This document shows positions 11,769-32,659 of a stretch of 64,000 nt of DNA, one piece after another. The notes under the pieces are model-generated. The model was given only the letters and a program-made list of their open reading frames with translations. It was not told the DNA's origin and did no database searches. The position numbers and the translations under genes were made by a program. The stretch comes from Draconibacterium mangrovi. Its GTDB lineage: Bacteria > Bacteroidota > Bacteroidia > Bacteroidales > Prolixibacteraceae. Location of the stretch: NCBI RefSeq assembly GCF_010586825.1, contig NZ_JAAAGB010000010.1, positions 1 through 64,000 of the forward strand. Direction: 5' to 3'. The first letter of the stretch is position 1; every line of letters starts with the position of its first letter.

Positions 11769-13604
11769 TTACATTACTTCGTCTTTTTCAACATACAGGT
11801 TTTCGATGATGAACTCCTGTCTTTCGGGGGTGTTTTTACCCATGTAGTAGGATAACATTTCTGCCACCGATTCGTGCTTTTTCATTTGCACCGGATCGAG
11901 ACGGATATCCTTACCAATGAAATGTTTAAACTCGTCGGGCGATATTTCTCCCAGTCCTTTAAATCGGGTTATTTCGGGTTTGCCACGTAATTTGTTTATG
12001 GCTTTTACTTTCTCTTCGTCTGAATAACAGTAGTACGTTTTTTGCTTGTTACGCACCCTGAAAAGCGGCGTTTGTAAAATATAAACATGTCCCTTCTTAA
12101 TCAACTCGGGGAAAAACTGCAGAAAGAAAGTAATAAGCAGCAAACGGATGTGCATTCCGTCAACGTCGGCATCGGTAGCAATAATTACCTTGTTGTAACG
12201 AAGGTCTTCCATGCTTTCTTCAATATTCAACGCTGCCTGTAAGAGGTTAAATTCCTCGTTTTCGTACACCACTTTTTTGGTAAGACCAAAAGTATTTAGC
12301 GGTTTTCCTTTCAAACTAAATACGGCCTGTGTATTTACATTGCGCGATTTGGTGATCGATCCACTTGCCGAGTCTCCCTCGGTAATAAAAATGCTCGATT
12401 CTTCTTTCCGCTCATCTTTTTCGTTGAAATGAACACGGCAGTCGCGCAATTTTTTGTTATGCAGGTTGGCCTTTTTAGCGCGTTGCCGCGCCAGTTTTTT
12501 CACCCCCGAAATGGCTTTACGTTCGCGCTCCGACTCCACAATGCGTCTCAGCAAAACTTCGGCAACCTCATGGTTTTTGTGCAGGAAGTTATCGAGCTCA
12601 GTCTGTAGAAAATTACCAACGTGTGCTCGCACTGACGGTCCGTTTGGGCCAATATCCCGTGATCCGAGTTTGGTTTTGGTTTGCGACTCAAATACAGGCT
12701 CTTCTACTTTAATGCTAACAGCCGCCACAATCGATGCCCGTATATCCGACGGGTCGAAATCCTTCTTGTAAAAGTCCCTGATCGTTTTCACTAAAACTTC
12801 GCGAAAAGCCTGTAAATGAGTCCCTCCCTGGGTGGTGTGCTGACCGTTAACAAACGAATAATAATCCTCCCCGTATTGATTACCATGTGTTATGGCAACT
12901 TCAATATCTTCGCCTCTGAGATGTATAATTGGGTAAATTGGGTCGTGATCCATATTTTCCTCGAGCAAATCACGCAATCCGTTGCGCGAGAAAAATTTTT
13001 CGCCGTTGTATTCAATGGTTAAGCCGGCATTCAGGAAGGTGTAGTTTTTCATCATATTCACGATATAGTCGTTCATATAACGATACTTTTTGAACACTTC
13101 CACGTCGGGGACAAACCTCACCTCTGTTCCGTTTCCCTCATCGAGATTTTGATAATCTTTCTCGCCGGTTTTAATCCCCTGGCTAAAATATACTTCTTTA
13201 GCCACGCCTTCGCGTACTGCTTTTATAGTAAAATCGGAAGACAGGGCATTTACGGCTTTTATACCGACACCGTTCAATCCCACCGATTTTTTGAAAACCT
13301 CGTTATCGTATTTTGCGCCGGTATTCATTTTACTGGCTACATCCACCAGTTTCCCCAGTGGAATTCCACGGCCATAATCGCGGATGGTAACCGAATCCTG
13401 ATCGACGTTTACAAGGATCTTTTTACCATGCCCCATCATAAATTCGTCGACAGAGTTATCCATCACCTCTTTCAACAAAACATAAATACCATCGTCGGCA
13501 GAAGTTCCGTCTCCGAGTTTACCAATATACATACCCGGACGTCGCCGGATGTGCTCCTGCCAGTCTAACGTTTTAATTGCACCTTCGTCGTAGTTTGCGC
13601 TCAT
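11769..13604 (-). CDS. parE: DNA topoisomerase IV subunit B
   Basis: 611 residues, shorter than most GyrB proteins and typical of Bacteroidota ParE. The GHKL ATPase domain carries Glu46 and Asn50 ([12 protein letters not shown]), the DYGRGIP motif and [14 protein letters not shown]. The TOPRIM domain has EGDSASG and, downstream, [10 protein letters not shown] for Mg binding. It ends with the PxRF-like [10 protein letters not shown] region. It is the first gene of parE-parC-aroK. Its promoter lies about 110 bp upstream, and the 21-bp mirror array lies about 540 bp upstream. Confidence 0.95.
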
Positions 13605-14019: not shown

Positions 14020-14426
14020 ATTTCACTGTTTCGCTTAAGGCTCACATTGAAACGCAATTGGTATTATTTATTGACAGACAAAAGATTTAAGTCTAATTCA
14101 GCATAAAATGCCGCGTATTTGCTCTCCCTGATATCAATATCTGCCAGCGAGCTATTCATACCTACATGCGAGCTACTTTTAGGCACCTGCGAGCTATCAA
14201 TATTTGCTTGCAAGCTATTTATAGAGACCTGCGAGCTTAGCTCGCACACTATTTTTTACACCTCGCATCATTTTATTTATAGCTCGCACCGCTTTTTTAG
14301 TAGCTCGCGCCCTATTATTCATACCTCGCAAGGCAATTTTAGCTACAGGGGAGAATAAAAAGAAAAATCGGGTGTCATTTAATATCAATTACATCTCGTT
14401 GTGAGCCTTAAGCGAGACAATGAAAT
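14020..14426. repeat. 26-bp imperfect inverted repeat flanking the 21-bp array
   Basis: The left arm 14020-14045 (core TTTCGCTTAAGGCTCAC) and the right arm 14401-14426 (core GTGAGCCTTAAGCGAGA) are reverse complements at 24 of 26 positions. They enclose about 355 bp whose middle is the mirror-symmetric array. Confidence 0.75.
14147..14329. repeat. Mirror-symmetric array of ten 21-bp units
   Basis: Five forward heptamers GCGAGCT start at 14147, 14168, 14189, 14210 (GCAAGCT) and 14231. Five reverse-complement heptamers AGCTCGC start at 14239, 14260 (ACCTCGC), 14281, 14302 and 14323 (ACCTCGC). Every step is exactly 21 bp and the two halves are symmetric about position 14238, where the central pair forms a 15-bp dyad. 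The 14-bp spacers are unrelated and AT-rich, so the heptamers are conserved and not a long hairpin. 21 bp is two turns of B-DNA, which puts all motifs on one face of the helix. This resembles iterons or an operator array; no known family comes to mind. Confidence 0.85.
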
Positions 14427-14892: not shown

Positions 14893-16671
14893 CTAAATAA
14901 TCCCCATTTTTTTCATCAGGAAAGTGGCATTCATGGTTTGGGTAACACCATCCGAGAGTTTGTAGTCGAAAATCAGCTCGTTGTTCTCGATCCGGATTTC
15001 GAAACATTTATTGAAAACGTGTTGCGGAAGTTCGTTTTCCATTTCACTCAATTTCAGGTCGTGCGTGGCAATCATTGCTGCACACTGGTACTGCGCAAGT
15101 TTTCTTACCAGTTCTTTCGAGCCATTTAGTTTATCAACCGAATTGGTTCCTTTCAGCATTTCGTCGAGAATAACAAAGATTTGCTCTCCTACCGCCAAAC
15201 GATCGAGCACAGCTTTTATCCGTTTTAACTCGGCAAAAAAATACGATTCGTCTTTAAGCAACGAGTCGGTTGTGCGCATATTGGTATACAAATCAACAGG
15301 TGTTATTTTCATCGATGTGGCACAAACCGGTGCGCCAATCTCTGCCAACAAGATGTTTGTACCCACGGTTCGCAGAAAAGTACTTTTACCGGCCATATTT
15401 GCGCCGGTTACGATCATAATTTTCGCCCAACCCTGAATTTCAATGTCATTGTTTACCCGCTTGTCTTTATTCAGTAACGGATGGCCCAATTCGGCAGCAC
15501 ATAACGAAAAGTCCTGATCCGTAATCTCCGGATACACAAAATCGCTGTGGTTATTGGCATAATTTGCCAGGCTAATAAATGCATCCATTTGTGCAATTAT
15601 TTCCAGCCACCCGGCCAGTCTTCCGTGATTCTCTTTATGCCATTTCCAAAGTTTATATACACAACGAATATCCCAGGTGAAAAGCCCGTTCAACACCACG
15701 CCAACCAAAATATTCTGCCGGTATTCGAATTCTTTCACCAGGCTTTTTAATTCGCCAAACACTTTCCCGGCTGAAGGTTCGGTTACCTTTTTCCTTAATT
15801 CGCTTAAATACGGTGATTGAAATTCTTTATCCTCGATGATTTTCAGCAACTGCATGTATTTGGCCAACAGGTCGGACTTGCGACCAAAAAATCCGAAGTA
15901 ATAATTCACCCTTTTTGTCCAGGCAAACAAAAGCAGAAACTGCACAAATACCATTGCCACCAGGTAAAAATTACTCACCCCCATTATTGCGGGAATTGCG
16001 GCCAGTACTGTAATTACAGGAACAATACGAATCAACCACTTCAACAGCTTTGAATGATTCAGTTCGAGTTCCATTTCCGACCAGGATCGAATTTCATTAT
16101 ACTGTACTTCGGTTTCCTTAAACAGGTTTCCTTCGGTTAAAAAGTCGAGCCGCCACATGGGCATTTCAGCCAATTCTTTAATGGCTTCCTGCCGCTTCTC
16201 AATTTCTACTCTTTCCTTTAGTGGCTTTTGCAACCAATCGGCCAGGCGTTGACGCCCTTCAACAGTTGCAGTACGGTTTAGGTACTGAAACAACGATCCT
16301 TCGCCAAACAAATCAAGATCGTAAGCATATGGATGTTCTGCATTCAGAAATTCTTCACCATTCTCAAAATGCAAAAAGGAATGATCCAGGGCCTTTAGCT
16401 CATCTTCCAGCAATTTCGTTTTAATAACAAGGGTTTGCTTTATTTTATCGAGCTGAAGATTTCTTTTGATCAGCCAGAAAAAAAGTACAATTAACGGAAG
16501 CGTGCAATAGAGTGTGGTAATTTCCCAGCCAAGAATAATAAGCGGGAGAAATATTGCCACAAATGCTACAAAACGATACCAGGCAAAACGTTTTACTTTC
16601 GCCGATACGCGTTGTAATTCATCGGTATAATACAAAAGTTTTTCGTAATAAAGCCGGGCAGGTTCACTCAT
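14893..16671 (-). CDS. Membrane-anchored MutS-family ATPase
   Basis: 592 residues. Two hydrophobic segments lie near 31-47 and 50-66, and a second pair near 210-250. The C-terminal half is a MutS-type ABC ATPase with Walker A GANMAGKST from 423, Walker B FVILDE at about 499-504, and the signature-like region LKGTNS. It lacks the N-terminal mismatch-recognition and connector domains of MutS and the Smr domain of MutS2. Such membrane MutS homologues are common in Bacteroidota but their role is not established, so mismatch repair should not be assumed. Its start abuts the stop of the upstream PAP2 gene with no gap, so the two are translationally linked. Confidence 0.85.
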   Translation of the reverse strand: MSEPARLYYEKLLYYTDELQRVSAKVKRFAWYRFVAFVAIFLPLIILGWEITTLYCTLPLIVLFFWLIKRNLQLDKIKQTLVIKTKLLEDELKALDHSFLHFENGEEFLNAEHPYAYDLDLFGEGSLFQYLNRTATVEGRQRLADWLQKPLKERVEIEKRQEAIKELAEMPMWRLDFLTEGNLFKETEVQYNEIRSWSEMELELNHSKLLKWLIRIVPVITVLAAIPAIMGVSNFYLVAMVFVQFLLLFAWTKRVNYYFGFFGRKSDLLAKYMQLLKIIEDKEFQSPYLSELRKKVTEPSAGKVFGELKSLVKEFEYRQNILVGVVLNGLFTWDIRCVYKLWKWHKENHGRLAGWLEIIAQMDAFISLANYANNHSDFVYPEITDQDFSLCAAELGHPLLNKDKRVNNDIEIQGWAKIMIVTGANMAGKSTFLRTVGTNILLAEIGAPVCATSMKITPVDLYTNMRTTDSLLKDESYFFAELKRIKAVLDRLAVGEQIFVILDEMLKGTNSVDKLNGSKELVRKLAQYQCAAMIATHDLKLSEMENELPQHVFNKCFEIRIENNELIFDYKLSDGVTQTMNATFLMKKMGII

Positions 16672-30158: not shown

Positions 30159-30821
30159 TTAACTTCGAACCAATTTACCCAACGCTTCTAACAGTTGAGG
30201 TTTATCTTCCATGGCAATTTTCGCCACGGCGTAAAATTCGCTCATCCAGTCGTCCATTCTTTCAAATGCTGCGTCTTTGGCTCTTGTTGCCTCCTGCGAT
30301 TCGCCTTTTTCCCTTAGGTATTCGCCCCGGGCAGCCTCCAAATCGGCAATCAGGCCCATTGCGTTTGTTATGTCTTCGGCTGTTATCTTAAGCCGTAGTA
30401 ATTTTGGCTGTATTTGAGCATCTCTGCTACCTGCCACGTTATAAAAACGTCTCACCGTTTCCAACCACTTTATATACGCGTTCGACAAACTGCCGGTAAG
30501 CGCAAGTTCTTCTAATATTTGAGGATCGTTTCGGAAAATAACCTTTGCCTTTTTTCGGTGCATCCGATACGTAGCATCAAGTTGTTCTTTTAAAGTTTGA
30601 AAAGCTGCATAGGCTTCCGAAGTTTCATCGTCTTCTGTTTTGTTTAAGTCGAAAATTTGGCGGGTTTCGGCCAGTAGCGTCTTACCTTCGGCAATTACTG
30701 TCGTATCGTAACCAAATTCGGCCATGCTTGTAGCCAACTCAGGTTGAATTTCGACATTTGTTAACGATACGCGATACTGCTCGAGGGCTTCTGCCTCTGA
30801 AAGTGTTTTTTTAGTTACCAT
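30159..30821 (-). CDS. Hypothetical all-helical protein
   Basis: 220 residues, with no signal peptide or membrane segment. The predicted structure is almost entirely helical, with charged stretches (ALEQYRVSLTNVEIQ, YRMHRKKAKVIFRNDP, LEAARGEYLREKGESQEATRAKDAAFERMDDWM). I do not recognise the family. The composition resembles four-helix-bundle or helical-repeat cytoplasmic proteins found only in Bacteroidota. The array of 21-bp units begins about 115 bp upstream of its start and is the most striking feature of its surroundings. Confidence 0.7.
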   Translation of the reverse strand: MVTKKTLSEAEALEQYRVSLTNVEIQPELATSMAEFGYDTTVIAEGKTLLAETRQIFDLNKTEDDETSEAYAAFQTLKEQLDATYRMHRKKAKVIFRNDPQILEELALTGSLSNAYIKWLETVRRFYNVAGSRDAQIQPKLLRLKITAEDITNAMGLIADLEAARGEYLREKGESQEATRAKDAAFERMDDWMSEFYAVAKIAMEDKPQLLEALGKLVRS

Positions 30822-31462
30822 TTCAATTAATTTTAAGGTTTACATTTATGTTTATCAACTCTTTTTGAGTGATTGCCTGTTGCTTACCCCTACTGTCCTT
30901 AACGCTGTTCATCCATTTTTCCGGCTCCCCACGCATTCCTTAAGCTTCTCCATTAGCTCCTTACAACTTCTCATGTATTCCTTATGGTCACTCATGCGTT
31001 CCTTACAGCTCCCCATGGGTTCCTTAAGGCCTCTCATGCGTTCCTTATGGCCCCCGATGAGCTCCTTAAGGCCTCTGATGCGTTCCTTATGGTTTCCAAT
31101 GTATTCCTTACAACTTGCCGCGAACAGAATGTGATTCCTCACTTATTCCTTACGCCAGCCCGGGGTTGCCTTTAAATTTTGTATGCTTATTTTGCCTGGG
31201 CGATGGTTATTTTTGATTCGTTTTTTGTTAAATAGTGTCTTCAATTTATGGAATTCTTACCAATTATCCTAATCTCCTAATGCACTTGTGCTCATTTTCA
31301 ACACACAGAACACACAGACAAGCAAGCATAAACAGGCATAGAACACCCCGACTTTTAAAATTCACACCAAGGCCTTTAACCAGGTAGCCTAACTTGTGTA
31401 ACTCAATACCTTGGCCTCCGTATACAAAACCATTCTAATGAATTAATCTAAAATCACAGGTC
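30822..31462. other. Gene-poor gap containing a 21-bp repeat array
   Basis: 641 bp between the hypothetical minus gene and the secreted plus gene. About a third is the repeat array. The remainder (31170-31462) is AT-rich with no clear structure. Frames of 77 (minus, 30909-31142) and 89 codons (plus, 30865-31134) cross the array and are 7-residue repeats. Confidence 0.7.
30936..31166. repeat. Tandem array of eleven 21-bp units
   Basis: Units start at 30936, 30957, 30978, 30999, 31020, 31041, 31062, 31083, 31104, 31125 and 31146, each exactly 21 bp after the last. Ten of eleven begin with TTCCTTA or CTCCTTA, and many have ATG near position 16 (e.g. CATGCG). The unit at 31125 is degenerate. On the minus strand the array reads as heptads xMxxxKE, with Ile/Met and Leu/His/Cys in a/d spacing, so it could encode a short coiled coil. 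On the other hand the invariant A of the heptamer falls on a third codon position and stays T on the minus strand whatever the residue, which favours conservation of the DNA itself. Confidence 0.85.
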
Positions 31463-32586: not shown

Positions 32587-32659
32587 GCCTCTTTAGCTCA
32601 GTTGGTAGAGCAGCTCATTCGTAATGAGCAGGTCGCGGGTTCAAGTCCCGTGAGAGGCT
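32587..32659 (+). tRNA. tRNA-Thr (anticodon CGU)
   Basis: 73-nt cloverleaf. Acceptor GCCTCTT pairs with GAGAGGC (last pair T-G), the D arm is GCTC/GAGC, the anticodon arm GCTCA/TGAGC carries loop TTCGTAA with anticodon CGT at the usual place, and the T arm is GCGGG/CCCGT with loop TTCAAGT. The discriminator base is T and CCA is not encoded. It reads ACG codons. Confidence 0.96.

Follow-up and report, generated by a model that had tools for sequence, protein, structure and literature searches.

Proteins that are paired with a phased operator array are familiar. In the iteron arrays of plasmid origins, a single protein's gene adjoins short sites that recur at intervals of about two helical turns, and the pSK1 Par repeat array and ParR/parC combine a small protein with repeated sites. 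Repeats of other kinds have been described as well. The BrickBuilt MITEs of Porphyromonas gingivalis are built of a 23-nt tandem repeat without spacers and are described in 19 copies in one genome (PMC4596501). REP elements are portrayed as single palindromes of 20–40 bp at high copy number (PMC3733652), and the TAACTGA heptamer repeats as direct 7-bp copies in sets that range from two to six and are longer in some species (PMC4679880). How does a phased array on the chromosome of Draconibacterium mangrovi compare with these?

The window analysed here is a stretch of 64,000 nucleotides of the D. mangrovi genome (contig NZ_JAAAGB010000010.1, positions 1 to 64,000). The array is intergenic, between two minus-strand genes, one for a type II topoisomerase subunit B of the gyrB/parE type (11769..13604; Pfam DNA_gyraseB and Toprim over cut-off) and one for a MutS-family ATPase (14893..16671; Pfam MutS_V and MutS_III). 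The left arm (14147..14237, plus strand) consists of five units in 21-bp steps with the core GCGAG, at 14147, 14168, 14189, 14210 and 14231, the fourth reading GCAAG. The right arm (14239..14329, minus strand) has five units in inverse orientation, at 14239, 14260, 14281, 14302 and 14323, and the arms meet in a 15-bp dyad centre, GCGAG-NNNNN-CTCGC (14231..14245). The original prediction described ten GCGAGCT heptamers in exact 21-bp steps, symmetric about 14238, and placed them upstream of parE. All ten sites, every within-arm step and the dyad at 14238 were confirmed. The heptamer itself is exact in only seven, with GCAAGCT at 14210 and GCGAGGT on the minus strand at 14260 and 14323; the conserved core is GCGAG, exact in nine of the ten. 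The window contains eight matches to the pattern GCGAGCT-N14-GCGAGCT at up to two mismatches, where 0.10 would be expected; of 100 shuffles none reached eight. The extent first given, 14147–14329, is right for the ten sites, but the element reaches one further 21-bp unit on each side, each in phase and starting with CCCTG (14126..14146, plus strand, and 14330..14350, minus strand). The array does begin upstream of a topoisomerase subunit B gene, 543 bp from its start, but no NCBIfam parE or gyrB model scores over its own cut-off there. A 16-bp inverted repeat (TCGCTTAAGGCTCACA) at 14031–14046 and 14400–14415 brackets the array, its midpoint about 15 bp off the array dyad.

The D. mangrovi genome contains three arrays with the centre GCGAG-N5-CTCGC: that of the window (contig C1), one near 56469 of C2 and one near 577190 of C20. 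They share the phased core and not the spacers, and are therefore not recent copies of one another. One of the three, at what we call locus 3, is directly 3' of an uncharacterised gene of 236 aa, F0, and begins just past its stop. F0 has no Pfam family over cut-off (its one match is below it) and no PADLOC defence match. The window contains a second pairing of array and gene; the original prediction had picked up neither this nor the link to F0. A direct array of nine 21-bp units with the core TAAGGA (30921..31110, minus strand) is located about 100 bp 5' of a minus-strand gene (30159..30821) for a PQLLE-family protein, identified by NF052641 at 256 bits against a curated cut-off of 80, with the match spanning 30174–30806. 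NF052641 also matches the D. mangrovi F0 protein at 35.3 bits (E 9.4e-9), below the curated cut-off of 80, and 19 of 23 aligned F0 proteins at E up to 0.01; the window PQLLE protein appears to be a remote relative of the F0 proteins. There is one matching PQLLE gene in the D. mangrovi genome, and two more intergenic arrays have the TAAGG core, near 162.8 kb of C23 and near 230.2 kb of C24. Two different cores, each with its own gene, therefore both show one linked array and two orphan arrays.

The F0 and PQLLE arrays resemble iterons in having sites stepped at about two helical turns beside a single protein gene. They differ from them in being chromosomal, in having orphan copies elsewhere and in that the linked protein lacks a Rep-type Pfam match. 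The last of these speaks against an iteron plasmid origin, a Rep initiator domain being missing by Pfam from F0, from the 23 aligned F0 proteins and from the window PQLLE protein; no Pfam family occurred in more than one of the 23, and the best match (E 0.0016) was, like the others, not a Rep. Like pSK1 Par, a single-protein partition system (PMC11500499), and like ParR/parC, the system has one small protein and repeated sites adjoining its gene, but here there is no HTH match, the element is chromosome-borne and two further orphan arrays exist. In ParMRC or ParABS partition a motor NTPase gene would be expected beside the array; at 20 F0 loci where the start of the next ORF was read by eye, there was no recurrent partner gene. 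BrickBuilt, from a Bacteroidota species, is also described as an intergenic tandem array and has small inverted-repeat ends, and differs as described in its MITE structure, whereas the repeats here are of 20–21 bp with the core alone conserved (PMC4596501). The near-identical dispersed copies of BrickBuilt or another MITE were not seen, the D. mangrovi arrays having only their core in common. REP elements share with the arrays the character of repeated intergenic sites; the contrast with their published description is in the phased arrays and in the copy number, three per core in D. mangrovi for the two cores searched (PMC3733652). Nor is a REP/RAYT origin supported: the listed open reading frames (ORFs) that neighbour the window array include no RAYT-kind transposase gene, and two ORFs that looked RAYT-like by eye, at 20 F0 loci, have no Pfam match. 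The TAACTGA repeats are intergenic heptamers too, some of them in Bacteroidetes, with neither helical spacing nor a linked protein in the published account as cited (PMC4679880). The nearest systems in anatomy are thus the iterons and centromere arrays and the nearest in taxon is BrickBuilt, and each differs in at least one feature. No description of phased arrays paired with an F0 gene was found in the open-licence literature.

Among relatives, the layout of the centre, GCGAG-N5-CTCGC, is common to the 24 arrays of the genus that were laid out, with one core letter altered in three. Six units per side are present in 13 of these (counted by hand, one-letter core variants included), as against five in the window array. 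Exact CCCTG stands in phase at one or both ends in 14 of the 24, again by hand count; in the rest the word is varied, as in TCCTG, or missing. The 21-bp step is broken twice, by a step of 20 in L009 and by one of 24 in L178. The centre pattern, with at most one mismatch, was matched in 13 of 37 genus genomes, of which G027 and G028 have single isolated matches that we regard as chance. A half-array model, built by aligning 31 of the 46 listed half arrays, each with six units, also matched 13 of the 37, in a different set that gains G003 and G033 and lacks G027 and G028. At the family level it matched 24 of 140 genomes. Seven weaker loci were laid out: that of G127 is a mirror array with the centre CGAG-TAGTA-CTCG, in G033, G104 and G081 the 21-bp units of the array are palindromic, and the G130 array is mostly direct. 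The remaining weak matches may be chance. A looser contig pattern scan returned at least 118 loci, and among the matches listed there was no full array, the best having 5 of 12 exact sites.

Some of these loci are of interest in themselves. In G033, L225 and L226 (near 470.8 kb and 1622 kb) are long arrays of palindromic 21-bp units (GAAG...CTTC), beside none of the F0 genes found in the family search. In other genera, L215 (G104) and L217 (G081) are direct 21-bp arrays whose units are palindromic or nearly so, with ACTCGCGAGT-like cores. Tandem repeats with a short unit of about 7 bp (TACGAGT, for instance) occur in G000 (C23 near 104 kb and C21 near 301.7 kb) and at L221 (G105); three times 7 equals 21.

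Flanking genes place the arrays at the same positions across species. Locus 1, between the topoisomerase and MutS genes, has arrays in seven genomes and a remnant in G008; locus 2 (DUF4924/DCC1-like) has arrays in eight and a remnant in G003; and locus 3, 3' of the F0 gene, has arrays in eight (all hand counts). A fourth place is occupied in G001 and G032. The topoisomerase gene neighbourhood is kept in the orthologous loci. The suggestion that the array might occur once per genome, always between the same genes, did not hold, as the genus has up to three places per genome, each kept in several genomes. Nor was the array absent or scrambled in relatives, an outcome that had been named as counting against the original prediction; phase is retained. 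Array loci can contract through deletion, as at locus 1 of G008, where a close F0 is present yet the array has shrunk. As a mark of the replication origin or terminus the arrays were rejected, since they cluster at neither extreme of GC skew in the two genomes concerned. Cumulative skew, sampled from 20 stretches per genome, has a broad minimum near 1.8 Mb and a maximum near 4.1–4.4 Mb in G006, with arrays at 2.59, 3.35 and 3.61 Mb; in G036 it falls to a minimum near 3.1 Mb and peaks at the sequence start, with arrays at 4.04 and 4.92 Mb.

Within the unit, conservation is uneven. The 220 of 240 GCGAG units that retain at least four of the five core letters have GCGAG at positions 1–5, A or T in 91–99% at positions 10–16 and T in 81% at position 21. 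Between orthologous arrays (three loci, 18 arrays) identity is 0.82–0.99 in the core and 0.73–0.91 at positions 12–14, and 0.41–0.51 at positions 6–7 and 17–20. Both the core and the AT block of the 21-bp unit are thus conserved, at a separation of about one helical turn. The step was also measured in 67 gene-linked regions, 40 of F0 and 18 of PQLLE chosen by length only, and 9 from the phylum-wide PQLLE set that were picked from loci already showing arrays and so are partly selected. The commonest 6-mer of each region was taken irrespective of spacing, with distances up to 60 bp. Of 287 same-word distances, 221 were 20 or 21 bp, 49 were 40–42 bp and 17 anything else; shuffles were flat. A step of 20–21 bp fits two turns of B-DNA, and the match of step to helix first pointed out for the window array is a rule common to many arrays.

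The symmetry had been attributed to the motifs and not to a hairpin. If the arms paired, left unit j should be closest to right unit j, but the non-core identity of the arms was 0.448 in hairpin register and 0.453 out of it (23 arrays, with L178 excluded for its 3-bp insertion; Wilcoxon p 0.84), which bears the attribution out. The window array and the locus-3 array do fold better than shuffles (z of -6.9 and -9.4, with 0 of 200 shuffles as good in each case), a low single-strand energy that could come from the inverted cores alone. A coding repeat, also named beforehand as telling against the array, was rejected, the best frame being open in 6 of the 24 arrays over a stretch of 4+4 units. At gathering score Rfam has no match over the array, the sole match in the window being a tRNA at 32587–32659. 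As the spacers have no pairing register and no frame is open in all arrays, the array most likely works as double-stranded DNA.

F0 homologues are present in 51 of 140 family genomes, with up to nine matches per genome, some of them fragments. The F0 profile matched 16 of 295 sampled genomes of the order, D. mangrovi included, and of 395 genomes sampled across the phylum the other 394 had none. With each distinct F0 protein counted once (profile E at most 1e-30), 54 of 59 genes are followed by a phased array with a 20–21-bp step, no more than about 430 bp downstream, and five have none at the 99th-percentile threshold. At that threshold arrays were scored upstream in 2 of 54 and in 3 of 295 shuffles. 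Above the highest shuffle score there were 45 downstream, 0 upstream and 0 in shuffles. Mirror and direct layouts both occur, so that the mirror form is one of several arrangements. Branches of F0 differ in core, with CCTGT or CCTGC, CCCGG, GGAAA, GTTAC and others. A tree of the 59 genes puts the GCGAG arrays in a single nine-member clade (support 100/99, in a bootstrap not yet settled), in which L253 has a degenerate core; in another clade, of 13, the cores are CCTG except for two that are GGAAA. The match of core to clade is imperfect, however: CCTG cores occur in other branches too, and there is a CGAGT-like array beyond the GCGAG clade. The outermost CCCTG units of the window array (14126–14146 and 14330–14350) resemble the core of other F0 arrays, and could be relics or capping sites. 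Four cores, GCGAG, CCTGT, GGAAA and TAAGG, stand beside four genes in D. mangrovi.

The F0 protein appears to be an internal duplication, to judge from a comparison of its N half with its C half (E 2e-4 over 86 columns, at a probability of 47%; at most 1% when the columns were shuffled, 20 times). The five aligned proteins of the GCGAG clade are basic (pI 9.3–9.9), and 17 of the 18 aligned outside it are acidic (pI 4.5–5.8).

The PQLLE genes have arrays on the other side. In the family, an upstream array exceeds the highest shuffle in 16 of 18 complete loci and a downstream array in 0 of 18, after 12 of 30 loci had been set aside for falling below 3,600 bases. Across the phylum, PQLLE matches at E up to 0.001 were found in 15 of 395 sampled genomes, with D. 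mangrovi among the six over cut-off. The phylum set gave upstream arrays in 16 of 24 loci and a downstream array in 1 of 24; it consists of the 24 scored of 30 loci (one was an F0 locus and five were too short), and includes many weak family matches with uncertain gene ends. The window PQLLE protein is acidic (pI 5.0) and has no Pfam family at E up to 1. A single-sequence structure model is all helical at a pLDDT of 41.7, too poor for use. PADLOC gave one weak match (RecX family, E 0.0056) and PHROG none, and the word PQLLE was not found in the open-licence literature. In the C24 array of G000 (L418) two unit types alternate in a repeat of about 42 bp, which suggests growth by tandem duplication.

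What, then, is the array in the window? It is probably an orphan, trans-acting member of a protein-plus-array system. Our best reading is that of an orphan predicted binding platform for the F0 protein, and it draws on the three GCGAG arrays, the F0-linked arrays, the tie between core and clade, and the parallel of the TAAGG arrays. That the F0 protein binds the GCGAG arrays is likely, as far as sequence comparison can tell. Close F0 genes (above 350 bits) are present in 8 of 37 genus genomes, all eight with matches to the array model, as against 5 of the 29 without a close F0 (a count that ignores ancestry); the five include the remnant of G003 and the differing arrays of G033.

Three genomes, G026, G035 and G036, retain GCGAG arrays, G026 with no F0 at all and G035 and G036 with only distant F0 genes (34–41% identity). 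They run counter to binding by F0, and would be expected if the arrays were sites of another, unlinked DNA-binding protein, with the F0 and PQLLE genes as its targets or partners and not as binders. Such a protein would also suit the upstream position of the PQLLE arrays, the mostly acidic F0 proteins outside the GCGAG clade and the acidic window PQLLE protein, a charge unusual for a protein that coats DNA; Pfam recognises no DNA-binding domain in F0 or the window PQLLE protein. We nevertheless think an unlinked binder unlikely. Arrays lie 3' of F0 genes but 5' of PQLLE genes, which fits linkage better than promoter control; the four cores beside four D. mangrovi genes would require several unlinked proteins; and the GCGAG core follows one F0 clade.

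Less probable still is that the F0 gene and its array form a mobile or selfish module, whose orphan arrays would be footprints like MITEs or REP elements. The spread of F0 is patchy, with up to nine matches per genome and some fragments, and deletion can shrink arrays. Among the next ORFs at 20 F0 loci, one (L303) encodes an integrase-core transposase, and two that directly follow the array (L307 and L308, in G126 and G131) look RAYT-like by eye from their motifs, with no Pfam match at E up to 0.01. Against mobility, the three D. mangrovi arrays share only their phased core and are not recent copies, and arrays keep the same places across species. In addition, neither F0 nor PQLLE has relatives in viral contigs, and F0 has none in plasmids, where one F0 protein was searched. 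It is very hard to believe that the element acts as RNA or as an extruded hairpin of its mirror arms, as the strong folds of two arrays would allow, since the spacers have no pairing register over 23 arrays, many member arrays are direct and have no mirror arms, the step matches two turns of B-DNA, and Rfam does not match the array.

If the orphan-platform reading is right, the F0 protein would read each unit on double-stranded DNA with one protein repeat per helical turn, one repeat on the GCGAG turn and the other on the AT turn. Proteins would then align along one face of the DNA, converging on the dyad from the two ends. It may be, as the original prediction supposed, that a dimeric protein coats one face. 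The gene-linked array may set the level of the F0 protein itself, or nucleate assembly, and the orphan arrays are proposed to be anchor or bridging points, in fixed positions between genes, by which the chromosome would be organised or insulated. More tentatively, F0 and PQLLE could belong to an undescribed class of chromosome-organising systems of the Bacteroidota, each with its own phased array code and several of them orthogonal within a cell, that bridge fixed distant loci through linked and orphan arrays.

To our knowledge, little is known of chromosome architecture and regulation in the Bacteroidota. The results connect the proteins of an uncharacterised group with arrays whose units recur at two helical turns, and the genome that has the linked arrays also contains orphan arrays that match them. 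Linked and orphan arrays together give a predicted binding code and target loci for each protein, so that binding, bridging and function are directly testable. The arrays beside an uncharacterised gene family suggest an undescribed kind of chromosomal protein-binding platform, and this may be a system of chromosome architecture or regulation.
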